Both the position numbers and the translations under genes were made by a program. The notes under the pieces are model-generated. The model was given only the letters and a program-made list of their open reading frames with translations. It was not told where the DNA came from and searched no databases. Below are positions 3,668 through 18,197 of a stretch of 35,129 nucleotides of DNA, one piece after another. Within the stretch, counting starts at the first letter, position 1; each line of letters opens with the position of its first letter. Location: the NCBI GenBank assembly GCA_018969975.1, contig JAGWXI010000023.1, positions 1 to 35,129 on the forward strand. The letters run 5' to 3'. This DNA comes from Burkholderiales bacterium (GTDB lineage: Bacteria; Pseudomonadota; Gammaproteobacteria; Burkholderiales; Burkholderiaceae_C).

Positions 3668-4576
3668 TTACAGCCATTCTCGTCGGACGAGAAAGTGTTG
3701 CATGAGTTCGTGTTCTGGACTGCCACTGGGTGCTTGTCGCTGGTAGGACCAACTTACCAAAGGGGGCATTGACAACAAAATGGACTCGGTTCGACCACCA
3801 GACTGCAAGCCAAAGTGGGTACCTCTGTCCCAGACCAAATTGAATTCAACATACCTCCCGCGGCGATATAGCTGGTGTGCACGCTCGCGTTCACCATAAG
3901 GCGTATCTTTGCGCTTTTGAACAATTGGTAGGTAGGCGGTTAACAAAGCGTCTCCCACGCTTTGCAGCATGGCGAAACTTTGTTCATTGCCAAGCTCAGC
4001 AAAGTCATCAAAGAAGATCCCACCAATGCCACGTTGCTCGTTGCGGTGTTTGAGGTAGAAATAGTCGTCACACCATTTTTTAAAGCGCGGGTAGAGCGCG
4101 TCCCCAAAGGGGGCCAATGCGTCTTTGCAGGTTTGGTGAAAGTGCACTGCGTCTTCTTCAAAGCCGTAGTAAGGGGTCAAGTCCATGCCGCCGCCAAACC
4201 AAGCGACCTTCTCCCCATGCGCAGGGGTAGCTGACAACATGCGAACATTCATATGTACGGTGGGCACATAAGGGTTGCGTGGATGAAATACCAGCGAAAC
4301 CCCCATCGCCTCAAAAGGTGCTCCCGATAGTTCTGGCCGATTGTGGGTTGCGGAGGGGGGAAGTTGTGGTCCCGATACATGCGAGAAGCCACAACCCGCG
4401 CGCTCAAATACGGACCCGTTTTCCAAAATTTGGGTAATTCCTTGACCTTGAAGAACTTCGCCAGCTGGCTTTTCCCACTGGTCCGCCAGAAAGTTGCCAC
4501 CATCCATCTGCGCAATGACGGAGGTAATTCGACTTTGTAATCCGATCAAATAGTTTCGGACTGAACCTGAATCCAT
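3668..4576 (-). CDS. hemF: Oxygen-dependent coproporphyrinogen III oxidase
   Basis: Converts coproporphyrinogen III to protoporphyrinogen IX using O2. The protein has 302 residues, the usual HemF length. Typical segments are [39 protein letters not shown] and [14 protein letters not shown]. Use of the aerobic enzyme rather than radical-SAM HemN fits an aerobic phototroph. The ATG at 4576 lies 11 nt from a TGT-N12-ACA palindrome (4588-4605) in the region shared with divergent hemA, so hemF-hemB-hemC-hemE are probably co-repressed with hemA. The promoter itself could not be assigned with confidence. Confidence 0.96.
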
Positions 4577-14045: not shown

Positions 14046-15511
14046 TGTTGGTTCTTGACCATGATCGCGCAGGAGGCTACTGGGGGGCGGTGTACGTTTT
14101 TTCTGCCATCAAGGGCCTTCAAGTGGTGATTGATGGCCCAGTAGGTTGCGAGAACTTGCCAGTGACCTCGGTCTTGCATTACACGGATGCACTGCCGCCG
14201 CACGAACTACCAATTGTTGTCACTGGACTGGCTGAAGAGCAACTTGGACGAGAGGGAACTGAAGGTGCTATGCGCCGCGCTAATGCAGTTCTTGATCCAG
14301 ATCTGCCCTCTGTTGTTGTAACGGGCTCTATAGCTGAAATGATTGGTGGGGGTGTAACGCCAGAGGGCACCAATTTACAGCGCTTTTTGCCTCGAACTAT
14401 TGATGAAGATCAATGGCAGTGTGCTAATCGCGCCATGTATTGGCTTTGGCAGCAATATGGATTAAAAAAAATACCCCAACGTACGCGCAAGGAAGGGGAG
14501 CGTCCCCGCGTCAACATCATTGGCCCTAGCTACGGTACGTTCAACTCTCCCAGTGATTTGGCTGAAATTCGCAGGTTGGTGCAGGGCATTGGTGCGGAAG
14601 TGAATATGGTTTTTCCGCTAGGTAGCCACTTGGCCGATGTGTCACGTTTGGTGGAAGCGGATGTCAATATTTGTATGTACCGAGAATTCGGTCGAATGCT
14701 TTGTGAAGCCCTTGAGCGTCCTTACTTGCAGGCTCCTATAGGACTTCACAGCACAACCAAGTTTTTGCGTTCGCTAGGTGCTTTACTAGGTTTGGATCCA
14801 GAGCCATTCATAGAGCGTGAAAAGCACAGCACCATCAAGCCAATTTGGGATTTGTGGCGCTCGGTAACGCAAGATTTTTTTGGCACTGCCAACTTTGGGG
14901 TAGTTGCTAATGAAACTTATACACGCGGGATTAGACATTTCTTAGAAGATGAGATGGGCATGCCTTGCAACTTTGCTATCGCTAGGCTGGCAGGCGCTAA
15001 AACAAACAATGAAGAAGTGCGCAAACTGGTGACTGAAAAAACACCGATGGTGCTCTATGGCAGCTATAACGAAAAAATCTATCTAGCGGAATGTGAAGGC
15101 CAGAAGATGATGAGAACTAGTTTTATACCTGCTAGTTTTCCTCTGCCACTGATTCGCCGCCATACGGGTACCCCTTTCATGGGATATGCAGGGGCTACCT
15201 ACATCATTCAAGAATTTTGTAATGCTCTATTTGATGCCCTTTTCCATATCCTTCCCTTGGGTACAGAGATGGACAAAATTGAAGGGAGTTTGAGTCGGAT
15301 GGCCCCAGATCAATCTATTCCTTGGGAGCCAGAAGCACAAAAATTGCTCGAGGAATTACTCGAACAGCAACCTATTTTGATTCGCATCTCAGCTGCGAAA
15401 AGAATGCGTGACCAGGCTGAACGTGACGCCAGAGAGAGCGGAAGTTCCCAAGTTTTTGCACAAAGATTTACTGAATTGTTCGGGCAAGCCAAGGATGAGG
15501 TGCATGCATGA
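14045..15511 (+). CDS. bchZ: Chlorophyllide a reductase subunit Z
   Basis: A 488-residue NifK-like partner of BchY. The N-terminus [20 protein letters not shown] and the cluster-binding [16 protein letters not shown] (about 29-44) are typical, as are [13 protein letters not shown] and the C-terminal [12 protein letters not shown], close to the usual BchZ tail. A GGAGG Shine-Dalgarno lies 11-13 nt before the ATG. The last bases overlap a small open frame (15508-15675) by ATGA. The puf genes follow on the same transcript. Confidence 0.95.
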
Positions 15512-15675
15512 AAGATGCATCTCAAAGTTTGCTAGCCCGACCAATCCTTCGACTTGTTCGGAGGTCAAGCTGTTGTGGCGCAGCTGCTGCAACAGTCCGT
15601 CCTGCACCCCTTGTGGGTCAGGGATTCGCTGAAAGGCATTTTGAAAGAGGAGCAAAGTATGACTCATGCAGCTAA
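15508..15675 (+). other. Small open frame in the place usually held by pufQ (doubtful)
   Basis: An ATG overlapping the bchZ stop (ATGA) opens a 55-codon frame that ends 17 nt inside pufB. The predicted peptide starts [20 protein letters not shown] and is basic and alanine-rich. It has no membrane segment, unlike PufQ of Rhodobacter, so I do not call it pufQ. It could be a short leader peptide coupled to pufB translation, or chance. The rest of this 147-bp gap holds a hairpin (15601-15622) and the pufB ribosome binding site. Confidence 0.2.
15601..15622 (+). promoter_or_regulatory. Hairpin in the pufB 5' leader
   Basis: CCTG-C-ACCC (15601-15609) pairs with GGGTCAGG (15615-15622) around a 5-nt loop, with one bulged C. 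It ends 24 nt before the pufB Shine-Dalgarno. It could protect the 5' end of a processed puf mRNA or tune pufB translation; both are inference. Confidence 0.4.
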
Positions 15676-15802
15676 CCCTACCGGGCTGACTGATTCGGAA
15701 GCCCAAGAGTTCCACAGCTATTTCATACAGGGTTACCTGTTATGGGCTGTTGGTGCTTTTGTCGCCCACAGTCTAGTGTGGATTTGGCGGCCTTGGTTTT
15801 AA
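15659..15802 (+). CDS. pufB: Light-harvesting 1 (B870) beta polypeptide
   Basis: A 47-residue single-span membrane protein. The acidic N-terminus (GLTDSEAQEFHSYF) carries the conserved His19 and the membrane helix (about 22-41) carries His37, the bacteriochlorophyll ligand in GAFVAHSLVWIWRPWF. The C-terminal RPWF is typical of LH1 beta. The ATG has an AGAGGAG Shine-Dalgarno (15646-15652) 6 nt upstream. A frame open further upstream (from 15554) only extends into the leader and is rejected. The next gene is not pufA but orf71. Confidence 0.95.
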   Translation: MTHAANPTGLTDSEAQEFHSYFIQGYLLWAVGAFVAHSLVWIWRPWF

Positions 15803-15816
15803 AAAACTAACGTAAC

Positions 15817-15820
15817 GGAG
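15817..15820 (+). promoter_or_regulatory. Ribosome binding site of orf71
   Basis: GGAG lies 6 nt before ATG 15827, an ideal spacing. It fixes the start of orf71 and is as good as the sites of pufB and pufA, showing that this small frame is meant to be translated. Confidence 0.75.
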
Positions 15821-15826
15821 ATAAGT

Positions 15827-16042
15827 ATGACGCACACAAACATGGCAATAAAAACCAATAACCATTTAGCTGGTTATTGGTTAATTTTTGTAATGCTTTT
15901 TTTAGTGTTTATGTTTTTAGCTTTGGCTGGAAAGTTGATGGCACTTAATTGGCGCGACTGGCTTCCCGGTGCAGAGGGATCAACTAGCACTTTGAATGGA
16001 GTGAAGTCATCTGTCTATACCGTTATTTCTCAATTGAATTAA
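15827..16042 (+). CDS. Unrecognised single-span membrane protein between pufB and pufA
   Basis: A 71-residue protein I do not recognise. A polar, basic N-terminus (1-15) precedes one hydrophobic helix (about 16-39: GYWLIFVMLFLVFMFLALAG). A tryptophan-rich interface NWRDWLPGAEG (41-51) and a polar C-terminal tail follow. By the positive-inside rule the N-terminus is cytoplasmic, like LH1 alpha. The helix has no histidine to bind bacteriochlorophyll; the only histidines are H3 and H13. It has a strong Shine-Dalgarno, starts 24 nt after pufB and ends 14 nt before pufA. Position, size and topology suggest an RC-LH1 accessory subunit, analogous to PufX, protein W or LH1 gamma chains but without clear sequence likeness. 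A degenerate alpha-like chain is an alternative. Confidence 0.8.
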   Translation: MTHTNMAIKTNNHLAGYWLIFVMLFLVFMFLALAGKLMALNWRDWLPGAEGSTSTLNGVKSSVYTVISQLN

Positions 16043-16056
16043 GAAAGGAAATTACT

Positions 16057-16254
16057 ATGTGGCGTATATGGCGTGTGATAGATCCTCGCAAGGCAGTAGT
16101 TCTTGTTGGACTTTTGATTGCGTTTGTTTCAACGTCGATTCATCTGATTCAAATCAGTGGCGATCGTTACAACATCAACAGTTGGCATCCAGATACAGCG
16201 AAAGCTGCAGCAGCGATGGCAAAACCACAAAACGCGGCTTTGCCGCAAAAGTAA
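16057..16254 (+). CDS. pufA: Light-harvesting 1 (B870) alpha polypeptide
   Basis: A 65-residue single-span protein starting with the LH1 alpha signature MWRIWRVIDPRKAVV. The membrane helix (about 13-34) carries His29, the bacteriochlorophyll ligand. The usual NWLEG-like segment after the helix is missing; instead SGDRYNINSWHP is followed by an alanine/lysine-rich tail. AAAGGA (16044-16049) lies 7 nt before the ATG. It is separated from pufB by orf71, an unusual order. Confidence 0.93.
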   Translation: MWRIWRVIDPRKAVVLVGLLIAFVSTSIHLIQISGDRYNINSWHPDTAKAAAAMAKPQNAALPQK

Positions 16255-16273
16255 GGACTATTGGTCTTTATTT

Positions 16274-16313
16274 GGCAGACGCAGCTCGATCCCATGGAAC
16301 GATGCGTCTGTCC
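16274..16313 (+). promoter_or_regulatory. Intercistronic hairpin between pufA and pufL
   Basis: CAGACGCA (16276-16283) pairs exactly with TGCGTCTG (16303-16310). It is extended outward by GG/CC with one bulge and inward by TCG/CGA and CC/GG. T-rich sequence follows (16314-16328). In Rhodobacter a hairpin here is known to shield the pufBA mRNA segment from 3' exonucleases, which gives more LH1 than RC. The same role is inferred; partial termination is also possible. The 122-bp gap holds nothing else but the pufL ribosome binding site (GGAGGG, 16364-16369). Confidence 0.75.
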
Positions 16314-16376
16314 TTTTCGCCTATTTTTTAATTCCAAAAGACCTCAATAAAAATCAATCGGTTGGAGGGTACAACT

Positions 16377-17204
16377 ATGTCTATGCTCAGTTTTGAAGCC
16401 AAATATCGTGTAAGGGGTGGCACTCTTTTTGGGGGTGATCTATTCGATTTTTGGGTTGGTCCTTTTTATGTAGGGTTTTTTGGAATTACAACCATTTTCT
16501 TTACCCTAACTGGGACAGCAATGATTTTGTGGGGAGCAGCTATGGGGCCTACTTGGAACCTGTGGCAAATCAATATTGCGCCTCCCGATATTTCCTACGG
16601 ATTGCGTTTTGCTCCGATGATGGAGGGAGGTTTATGGCAACTCATAACGGTGTGCGCAATTGGCTCTTTTGTTTCTTGGGCACTGAGAGAAGTGGAAATT
16701 TGCCGAAAACTTGGTATGGGTCTTCATGTTCCAGTTGCTTTTAGTATGGCAATACTGGCCTACGTGAGTCTGCAAGTCATCAGACCCGTTCTCATGGGCG
16801 CATGGGGGCATGCGTTTCCTTATGGCATCTTCAGTCATTTAGATTGGGTTAGCAATACCGCCTATCAGTACTTGCATTTCCACTACAACCCGTGGCACAT
16901 GATTGCAGTAACTTTCTTCTTTGCTACGGTTTTAGCGCTTTCAATGCATGGGGGCTTGGTTTTGTCTGCTACCAATCCGGGTAAAGGCAAGACAGTTAAG
17001 TCACCAGAACATGAAGATACTTTTTTTAGAGACTTGATCGGATATTCCGTGGGCACGCTCGGTATCCACAGATTAGGTTTATTTTTAGCTTTAGCGGGAG
17101 TTTGGTTTGGGATTGTTTGTATTGTGATTAGTGGCCCATTTTGGACAGGATCTTGGCCAGAGTGGTGGGGTTGGTGGCTCAACATGCCAATTTGGCGTAC
17201 TTGA
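16377..17204 (+). CDS. pufL: Photosynthetic reaction centre L subunit
   Basis: A 275-residue five-helix membrane protein that binds the special pair, an accessory bacteriochlorophyll, a bacteriopheophytin and QA/QB cofactors together with PufM. It starts [20 protein letters not shown], as usual for PufL. The fourth-helix region [20 protein letters not shown] contains chlorophyll-ligand histidines, and [14 protein letters not shown] contains an iron-ligand histidine. The ATG follows GGAGGG by 7 nt; an in-frame extension of five codons upstream reads through the Shine-Dalgarno. pufM follows after 18 nt. Confidence 0.97.
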
Positions 17205-17222
17205 TCAAAAAGGAAATTGAAC

Positions 17223-18197
17223 ATGGCACAGTATCAAAATCTCTTTACCTCAGTACAGCCCGTTGGGCCCTTGCATGATGGCGTTGCTTTGCCCCGCGGG
17301 GACGACAAGCGAACAGGCAATCCCTTTCTATTTCACTTATTGGGAAGGCTTGGCAACGCACAGATCGGGCCTGTTTATTTAGGTACGCTTGGCGTTGCCT
17401 CGCTTGTTTTTGGCATAGCTGCCTTCAACATCATTGGCTTTAATATGCTGGCCTCGGTTGACTGGAATCCTATTCAGCTATTGCGTCAATTATTTTGGTT
17501 GGCGCTTGAGCCCCCACCTCCAGCCTATGGATTGGGTATTCCTCCTCTGGCCCAAGGGGGTTGGTGGTTAATTGTTGGATTCCTTCTAACAGTATCCATT
17601 CTGCTGTGGTGGGTGCGTACTTACCGAAGGGCTATACAACTTGGTTTGGGCACGCATATCGCCTGGGCCTTTGCCGCTGCAATATGGCTTTATCTGGTTT
17701 GCGGTTTCTTTCGTCCCATCATGATGGGAAGTTGGTCAGAGGCTGTGCCTTTTGGAGTTTTCCCGCATCTCGATTGGGTTTCTGCCTTATCGCTTCGATA
17801 TGGAAATTTGTTCTACAACCCTTTTCACTCTTTGTCTATTGTTTTCCTCTATGGCTCGGTTCTTTTGTTTGCCATGCATGGAGCAACAATTTTGGCGGTC
17901 AGCCGCTATGGAGGCGAGCGTGAGATTGAACAAATCGTAGACCGAGGCACTGCCTCGGAGCGGGCGGCATTATTTTGGCGATGGACGATGGGCTTTAATG
18001 CAACTATGGAGTCCATACACCGGTGGGCATGGTGGTTTGCCGTACTGTGTCCTTTAGTAGGCGGTATTGGTATTTTGTTGACAGGTACCGTCGTGGACAA
18101 CTGGTATCTGTGGTCGGCTAAACACCATGTGGTGCCTATGTATCCAATCAGTGGTCCGGCAGTTGTCGATCCAGCCATCTTGGGAGTAAAACCATGA
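17223..18197 (+). CDS. pufM: Photosynthetic reaction centre M subunit
   Basis: A 324-residue five-helix partner of PufL. Typical segments are [12 protein letters not shown] at the start, RNPFLF-like [40 protein letters not shown] with the chlorophyll-ligand histidines, and [19 protein letters not shown] with the quinone and iron site. ATG 17223 is preferred over an in-frame TTG two codons earlier because AAGGA (17210-17214) is 8 nt upstream. The stop overlaps the pufC start as ATGA. The long C-terminus fits species that carry a tetraheme PufC. Confidence 0.97.

Follow-up and report, generated by a model that had tools for sequence, protein, structure and literature searches.

A conserved gene between pufB and pufA encodes a probable histidine-less relative of the LH1 β polypeptide

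Introduction

It is an old question by what route quinone gets out of a ring-shaped antenna and what small proteins give the ring its shape. PufX, protein W, LH1 γ and the γ-like chain of Rhodopila are small helices of RC-LH1 other than α and β, and all have been proposed to shape the ring or the passage of quinone. To our knowledge, none of them is a β paralogue, and they are compared with the present protein as functional analogues only. The Rhodopila γ-like chain, according to the available part of its description, has 22 residues, runs antiparallel to α/β and is encoded away from puf (PMC9640540). The gene for PufX lies after pufM.

The source cited for the puf ORFs of Rubrivivax gelatinosus is said to be Nagashima 1994. 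The operon contains two ORFs to which no function is assigned, of which ORF2 lies upstream of pufA (PMC12817894). In the accessible text of that paper, ORF2 is a frame without an assigned function and is compared only with PufA-type proteins: aligned with PufA, PufA1 and PufA2, it shows 10-15% identity to PufA2 and no His29, and Gemmatimonas pufA2 is stated not to have come from it. In Roseateles depolymerans, a frame named ORF74, a name that suits a length of 74 residues, has its locus tag between the tags of pufB and pufA. As far as the available portion of that report extends, pufA, pufB and ORF74 are co-transcribed in a major 1-kb puf mRNA, and these three loci show the largest changes in transcript (mRNA data) under carbon starvation (PMC10037100).

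Here we analyse a 71-residue frame at this place in a 35,129-nucleotide stretch of DNA, referred to as the window. An earlier note on this DNA had called its product unrecognised. That description holds for its function, of which no record exists in the sources consulted, but not for the frame, which was noted before in two species: as R. gelatinosus ORF2, and, inferred from position and name or length rather than from sequence, as R. depolymerans ORF74. We found no description of the ORF2/ORF74 frame as a PufB paralogue in the literature searched, to which its β-type nature is new; the search covered few subscription papers, and an older remark is possible.

Results

All features described here lie on the forward strand of the window. 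The gene pufB (15660-15802, with the start ATG at 15660 read from the sequence) encodes a short LH1 β ending in WRPWF and matches PF00556 (E 2e-9) and the NCBIfam model pufB_517_ASD (E 1.8e-20). The 71-residue frame (15827-16042), hereafter the ORF, runs from an ATG at 15827 to a stop codon that ends at 16042; it begins 24 nt after the pufB stop (end 15802) and ends 14 nt before the pufA ATG (16057). A Shine-Dalgarno GGAG at 15817-15820, also read from the sequence, stands 6 nt before its ATG. These dimensions are as the earlier note gave them. The LH1 α gene pufA (16057-16254; PF00556, E 2.5e-5) is followed by a stable hairpin at 16274-16312 and then by a T-rich stretch; folding of 16252-16345 gives -27.4 kcal/mol (z -3.8), with none of 200 shuffles as stable. 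The ORF does lie upstream of a pufA-pufL hairpin, which is of the type expected to shield the pufBA mRNA. Downstream are pufL (16377-17204; PF00124 match at 16464-17195), with the start ATG at 16377 read from the sequence and a TTG at 16362 given in the list of open frames, and pufM (17217-18197; PF00124 match at 17373-18131), listed from a TTG at 17217 with an alternative ATG at 17223. Apart from pufB and pufA, the genome that contains the window (89% complete) yields no Pfam LHC match.

Two further observations concern the flanks of this segment. The C-terminus of PufA, A-A-L-P-Q-K (window 16234-16245), fits the motif [A/S]-[P/A]-[L/M/I]-P, which is tied to contact of LH1 α with the reaction-centre cytochrome in the available text of PMC9640540. 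In R. gelatinosus, ORF1 lies directly upstream of pufB, as the accessible part of PMC12817894 has it; in the window, the gap at 15512-15659, which separates pufB from a gene ending at 15511, is no more stably folded than its shuffles.

The ORF product most resembles LH1 β. With the window's ORF protein as query, no Pfam family was matched at E up to 1, and the Pfam LHC family PF00556 gave weak matches for 12 of 45 members of the ORF family (best E 0.0024). By phmmer against the PDB, however, the best matches were the β-type chains 8z81_B (E 3.4e-8), 7xxf_B (6.3e-8) and 9m8m_B (9.4e-7), in whose alignments the β motif AHxLAWxWRPW is recovered and the ligand His stands opposite Lys36 of the ORF. 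When a profile of 45 ORF homologues was compared with other profiles, the match probability was 98.7% (over 53 columns) for long-tailed PufB, taken from seven related genomes, 95.9% for short PufB and 45% for PufA; an independent ORF profile of 17 rows matched long PufB at 97.2%. In a gene tree, a single branch (SH-aLRT 99) has all 122 distinct ORF cores to one side, although the tree uses only 34 columns and carries a warning that long branches meet. At the level of sequence, the phmmer and profile comparisons show common descent and make the ORF product a paralogue of PufB. The LH1-α-like label of the earlier note was mistaken in sequence terms, and an α-like origin is not supported, given a profile match of 45% to PufA against 96-99% to PufB. 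The same phmmer search found no member of the ORF family among solved chains; none of its 16 matches (E up to 10) bore the name of PufX, protein W, γ or a γ-like chain, short helices of a kind that such a search can miss. The position of the gene, between pufB and pufA rather than after pufM, rules out its identification as PufX.

The features shared with LH1 β, chiefly with long-tailed β, are the helix, an AxxxH-type spacing that includes the Ala, the WRxWLPG segment and the tail. What the ORF lacks are the bacteriochlorophyll-ligating His and the EAxEFH segment, and it is encoded beside a normal short PufB. In phmmer and profile alignments and in column counts, the column of the β ligand His is occupied in the window by Lys36 (AAG, 15932-15934), so that the claimed absence of a helix His for bacteriochlorophyll is borne out. 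Across 54 genomes, this column holds Gln in 37, Lys and Ala in 4 each, Thr in 3, Leu in 2 and His, Ser, Gly and Cys in 1 each. Among 96 distinct sequences, drawn from 127 of 129 loci, the residues are Gln (75), Lys, Ser, Thr and Leu (4 each), Ala (2) and Arg, His and Gly (1 each). The His (codon CAT) was seen at three loci (L055, L056 and L115), from two Curvibacter MAGs and genome G152, and it is possible that a pigment site was regained or kept in this lineage. The cytoplasmic motif GL(T/S)xxEAxEFH, present in PufB, is absent from the window's ORF and from aligned members, which keep the helix, WRxW and a periplasmic-side tail, LPGAE...GVKxAVYTFMSHL. In 62 distinct sequences obtained by profile search of genomes, the residues retained are the Ala four before the ligand column (57), the first Trp (60) and second Trp (53), then past WRxW P (58), G (61), A (59) and E (60), and in the tail V (61), Y (59), T (57), M (56) and S (60). 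Conservation is hence strongest on the part that lies periplasmic in LH1 β. A further 80 loci from named genomes were found via a tail pattern, and their tail invariance follows by construction. An AlphaFold2 model of the ORF product (45 rows; pLDDT 72.9, pTM 0.51, moderate confidence) has predicted helices at residues 13-37, 42-45 and 55-70, of which the first is the one long hydrophobic helix, in line with the single membrane helix proposed before.

The ORF is found together with reaction-centre genes and in a constant place. In a set of 61 genomes, comprising the window's own and relatives, an ORF match with E below 1e-9 was obtained in 30; from this set 20 loci were returned, all of which show short PufB, ORF and pufA. 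In an evenly drawn sample of 399 genomes of the family, reaction-centre genes (PF00124) occur in 64 and ORF profile matches (E up to 0.001) in 61; all 61 are among the 64 genomes with PF00124 and none among the 335 without, and 7 of the 61 matched solely via a long-tailed, His-bearing PufB. Across a phylum sample of 398 genomes, PF00124 was present in 31, of which 15 had no match, and the ORF profile matched in 17. Of these matches, 4 are strong and belong to the window's family, 12 are long-tailed βs from other families that bear the His, and 1 is weak. The weak match (genome G761, E 7.5e-5) comes from a genome without PF00124. A second weak match (L207, G472:C1:3842831-3842989, E 7.6e-5) lies upstream of a long-tailed PufB of another family. 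Scanning of named genomes yielded 170 relatives, 80 of which were kept, under titles such as Limnohabitans, Rhodoferax, Curvibacter, Rubrivivax gelatinosus, R. benzoatilyticus, Piscinibacter, Aquabacterium and a Rhodocyclaceae MAG. One record, titled Candidatus Fonsibacter lacus MAG (L071), has a betaproteobacterial-type puf operon with the ORF and is probably a misbinned contig.

Among 173 loci surveyed, which are not independent and in some cases come several from one genome, the order pufB-ORF on the same strand holds in all 154 that show both genes. The ORF stop lies 9-17 nt before the pufA ATG in all 152 measured cases, including the R. gelatinosus loci L073 and L075; L073 carries its family member at the place of ORF2. 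The other 19 loci comprise 7 with a long β, 1 without the ORF, 4 without these genes and 7 without a recognised PufB. These last 7, all with the ORF, are stretches that start after pufB, or L154, whose β ends in WRSWL and was scored as PufB by eye, or L086. In L086 (Piscinibacter aquaticus), the pufB frame at 3798-3960 departs from the family after ...HVLVWA, through a sequencing frameshift or in a broken gene. The place of the ORF between pufB and pufA is therefore fixed, and the homologues and synteny asked after in the earlier note are present.

The ORF is a real gene under purifying selection. Its median dN/dS is 0.156 and the highest value 0.465 over 667 pairs, compared with 0.087 for pufB (622 pairs, one outlier at 2.4) and 0.089 for pufA (669 pairs); these are Nei-Gojobori values over the C-terminal 58 residues for pairs of at least 70% ORF identity and dS 0.1-1.5, and the pairs are not independent. 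The constraint that the earlier note had asked about is thus evident, and an orphan or chance frame can be rejected on this ground and because many genomes have a homologue in the corresponding position. Shine-Dalgarno duplex energies in the window are -6.6 kcal/mol for the ORF, -8.3 for pufB and -5.6 for pufA. The corresponding medians are -8.2 for pufB (n=113), -7.6 for the ORF (n=112), taking as start the ATG with the best site, a choice that favours the ORF, and -7.3 kcal/mol for pufA (n=113); such similar strengths are no measure of protein amount.

The ORF and long PufB tails do not occur together. Within the family, 62 puf operons could be scored, while G268 and G432, whose assemblies contain reaction-centre genes but lack an LH1 gene, were left unscored. 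Short PufB plus ORF occurs in 54 of the 62, long PufB without the ORF in 7 and short PufB alone in 1, and no operon has both a long-tailed PufB and the ORF. Each of the 7 long-tailed proteins is the single PufB of its operon and retains the His, and pufA comes directly after its gene. Among the 55 operons in which PufB ends in WR[PS]W[LF], 54 have a tail supplied by the ORF. The exception, G175 (L142, G175:C13:42500-46000), has short PufB and then pufA at a distance of 38 nt, lacks the ORF and shows no tail on any LHC match of the genome; it is a natural counter-example. When a family operon carries the tail, it accordingly does so on one protein only, a long PufB with the His or a separate ORF protein next to a short PufB.

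Discussion

Descent from LH1 β and strict co-occurrence with reaction-centre genes make a role of the ORF product in RC-LH1 likely. We lean towards a His-less β-type subunit, derived from pufB and specialised, that would sit in or against the LH1 ring. The ORF would be expressed as part of the operon's pufBA segment, and its product would insert N-in/C-out, by analogy with LH1 β. Contacts retained in the helix and WRxW may hold it in or against the ring at a β-like place, with the tail helix laid on the periplasmic face. A ring position with no or weakly bound bacteriochlorophyll could then alter packing or open a path for quinone. The earlier note's candidate subunit thus survives as a small His-less helix protein, conserved in place and under selection; its novelty is lessened by its being a paralogue of the known LH1 β.

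The main alternative to a subunit of the finished ring is an assembly or dosage factor for LH1, which would pair transiently with PufA or PufB and be absent from, or present in traces in, the completed complex. Descent from β would supply the interfaces needed, the gene is encoded between those of its two would-be partners, and at least one lineage (G175) dispenses with it. The ribosome-binding sites of the ORF nevertheless match those of pufB and pufA in strength, and the homologous R. depolymerans locus, in the available transcript data, responds as pufB and pufA do, more like a structural part (PMC10037100). Neither point is decisive, and we consider an assembly factor unlikely.

The subunit could also be a second pigment-binding β, in which Gln or another residue holds bacteriochlorophyll at a spectrally shifted LH1 site. 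Gln ligates chlorophyll in plant LHCII, which counts for this proposal, as do the Gln of 37 of 54 genomes and the retention of the Ala four before the ligand column (57 of 62) and of the second Trp of WRxW (53 of 62). In 16 of the 54 genomes, however, the column holds Lys (as in the window), Ala, Thr, Leu, Ser, Gly or Cys, most of which are poor Mg ligands, and a dedicated pigment site seems to us quite improbable. Even so, calling the ORF product pigment-free would be too strong, since its commonest residue at this column, Gln, can ligate (bacterio)chlorophyll in other proteins and one lineage has His. Loss of the ligand His, together with absence of the ORF from 8 of 62 scorable operons, might instead suggest a decaying pufB duplicate without function. 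This reading is contradicted by the selection test, with dN/dS at or below 0.465 in all 667 pairs and near-invariant tail residues; moreover, the frame is open in all 54 strong matches, and the predicted length is 71-78 residues in 108 of 112 distinct sequences (most commonly 74). We regard decay as very improbable.

If the His-less β-type subunit is the correct reading, one may tentatively go further and suppose that most phototrophic members of the family divide LH1 β between two proteins, a bacteriochlorophyll-binding short PufB and a tail-bearing, His-less twin that acts as a gap or spacer in the ring. A two-protein LH1 β would then be a way to shape the ring and pass quinone separate from PufX, protein W and the γ chains. 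The features of a single antenna protein may here be divided between two genes, the ORF and pufB. The ORF is a conserved LH1-type gene, the third of its operon, in 54 of 62 scorable family puf operons, R. gelatinosus included. Its product has probably been overlooked as a component of light harvesting in many related bacteria. Placing ORF2 with PufB rather than PufA is in keeping with what the accessible text of PMC12817894 concludes on pufA2.

Most simply, the ORF would have arisen by duplication of pufB within the puf operon and subsequent specialisation. In a tree of the reaction-centre L and M proteins (54 rows, built by a fast method, with less than half of the columns present in seven of the rows), the seven long-β genomes fall among the ORF carriers with weak support, a placement compatible both with and without a single origin and with either order of events. 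A fusion of pufB with the ORF is not favoured as the source of the long-tailed βs, because their tails (GYAxL...) are nearer to those of long βs in other families than to the ORF tail.
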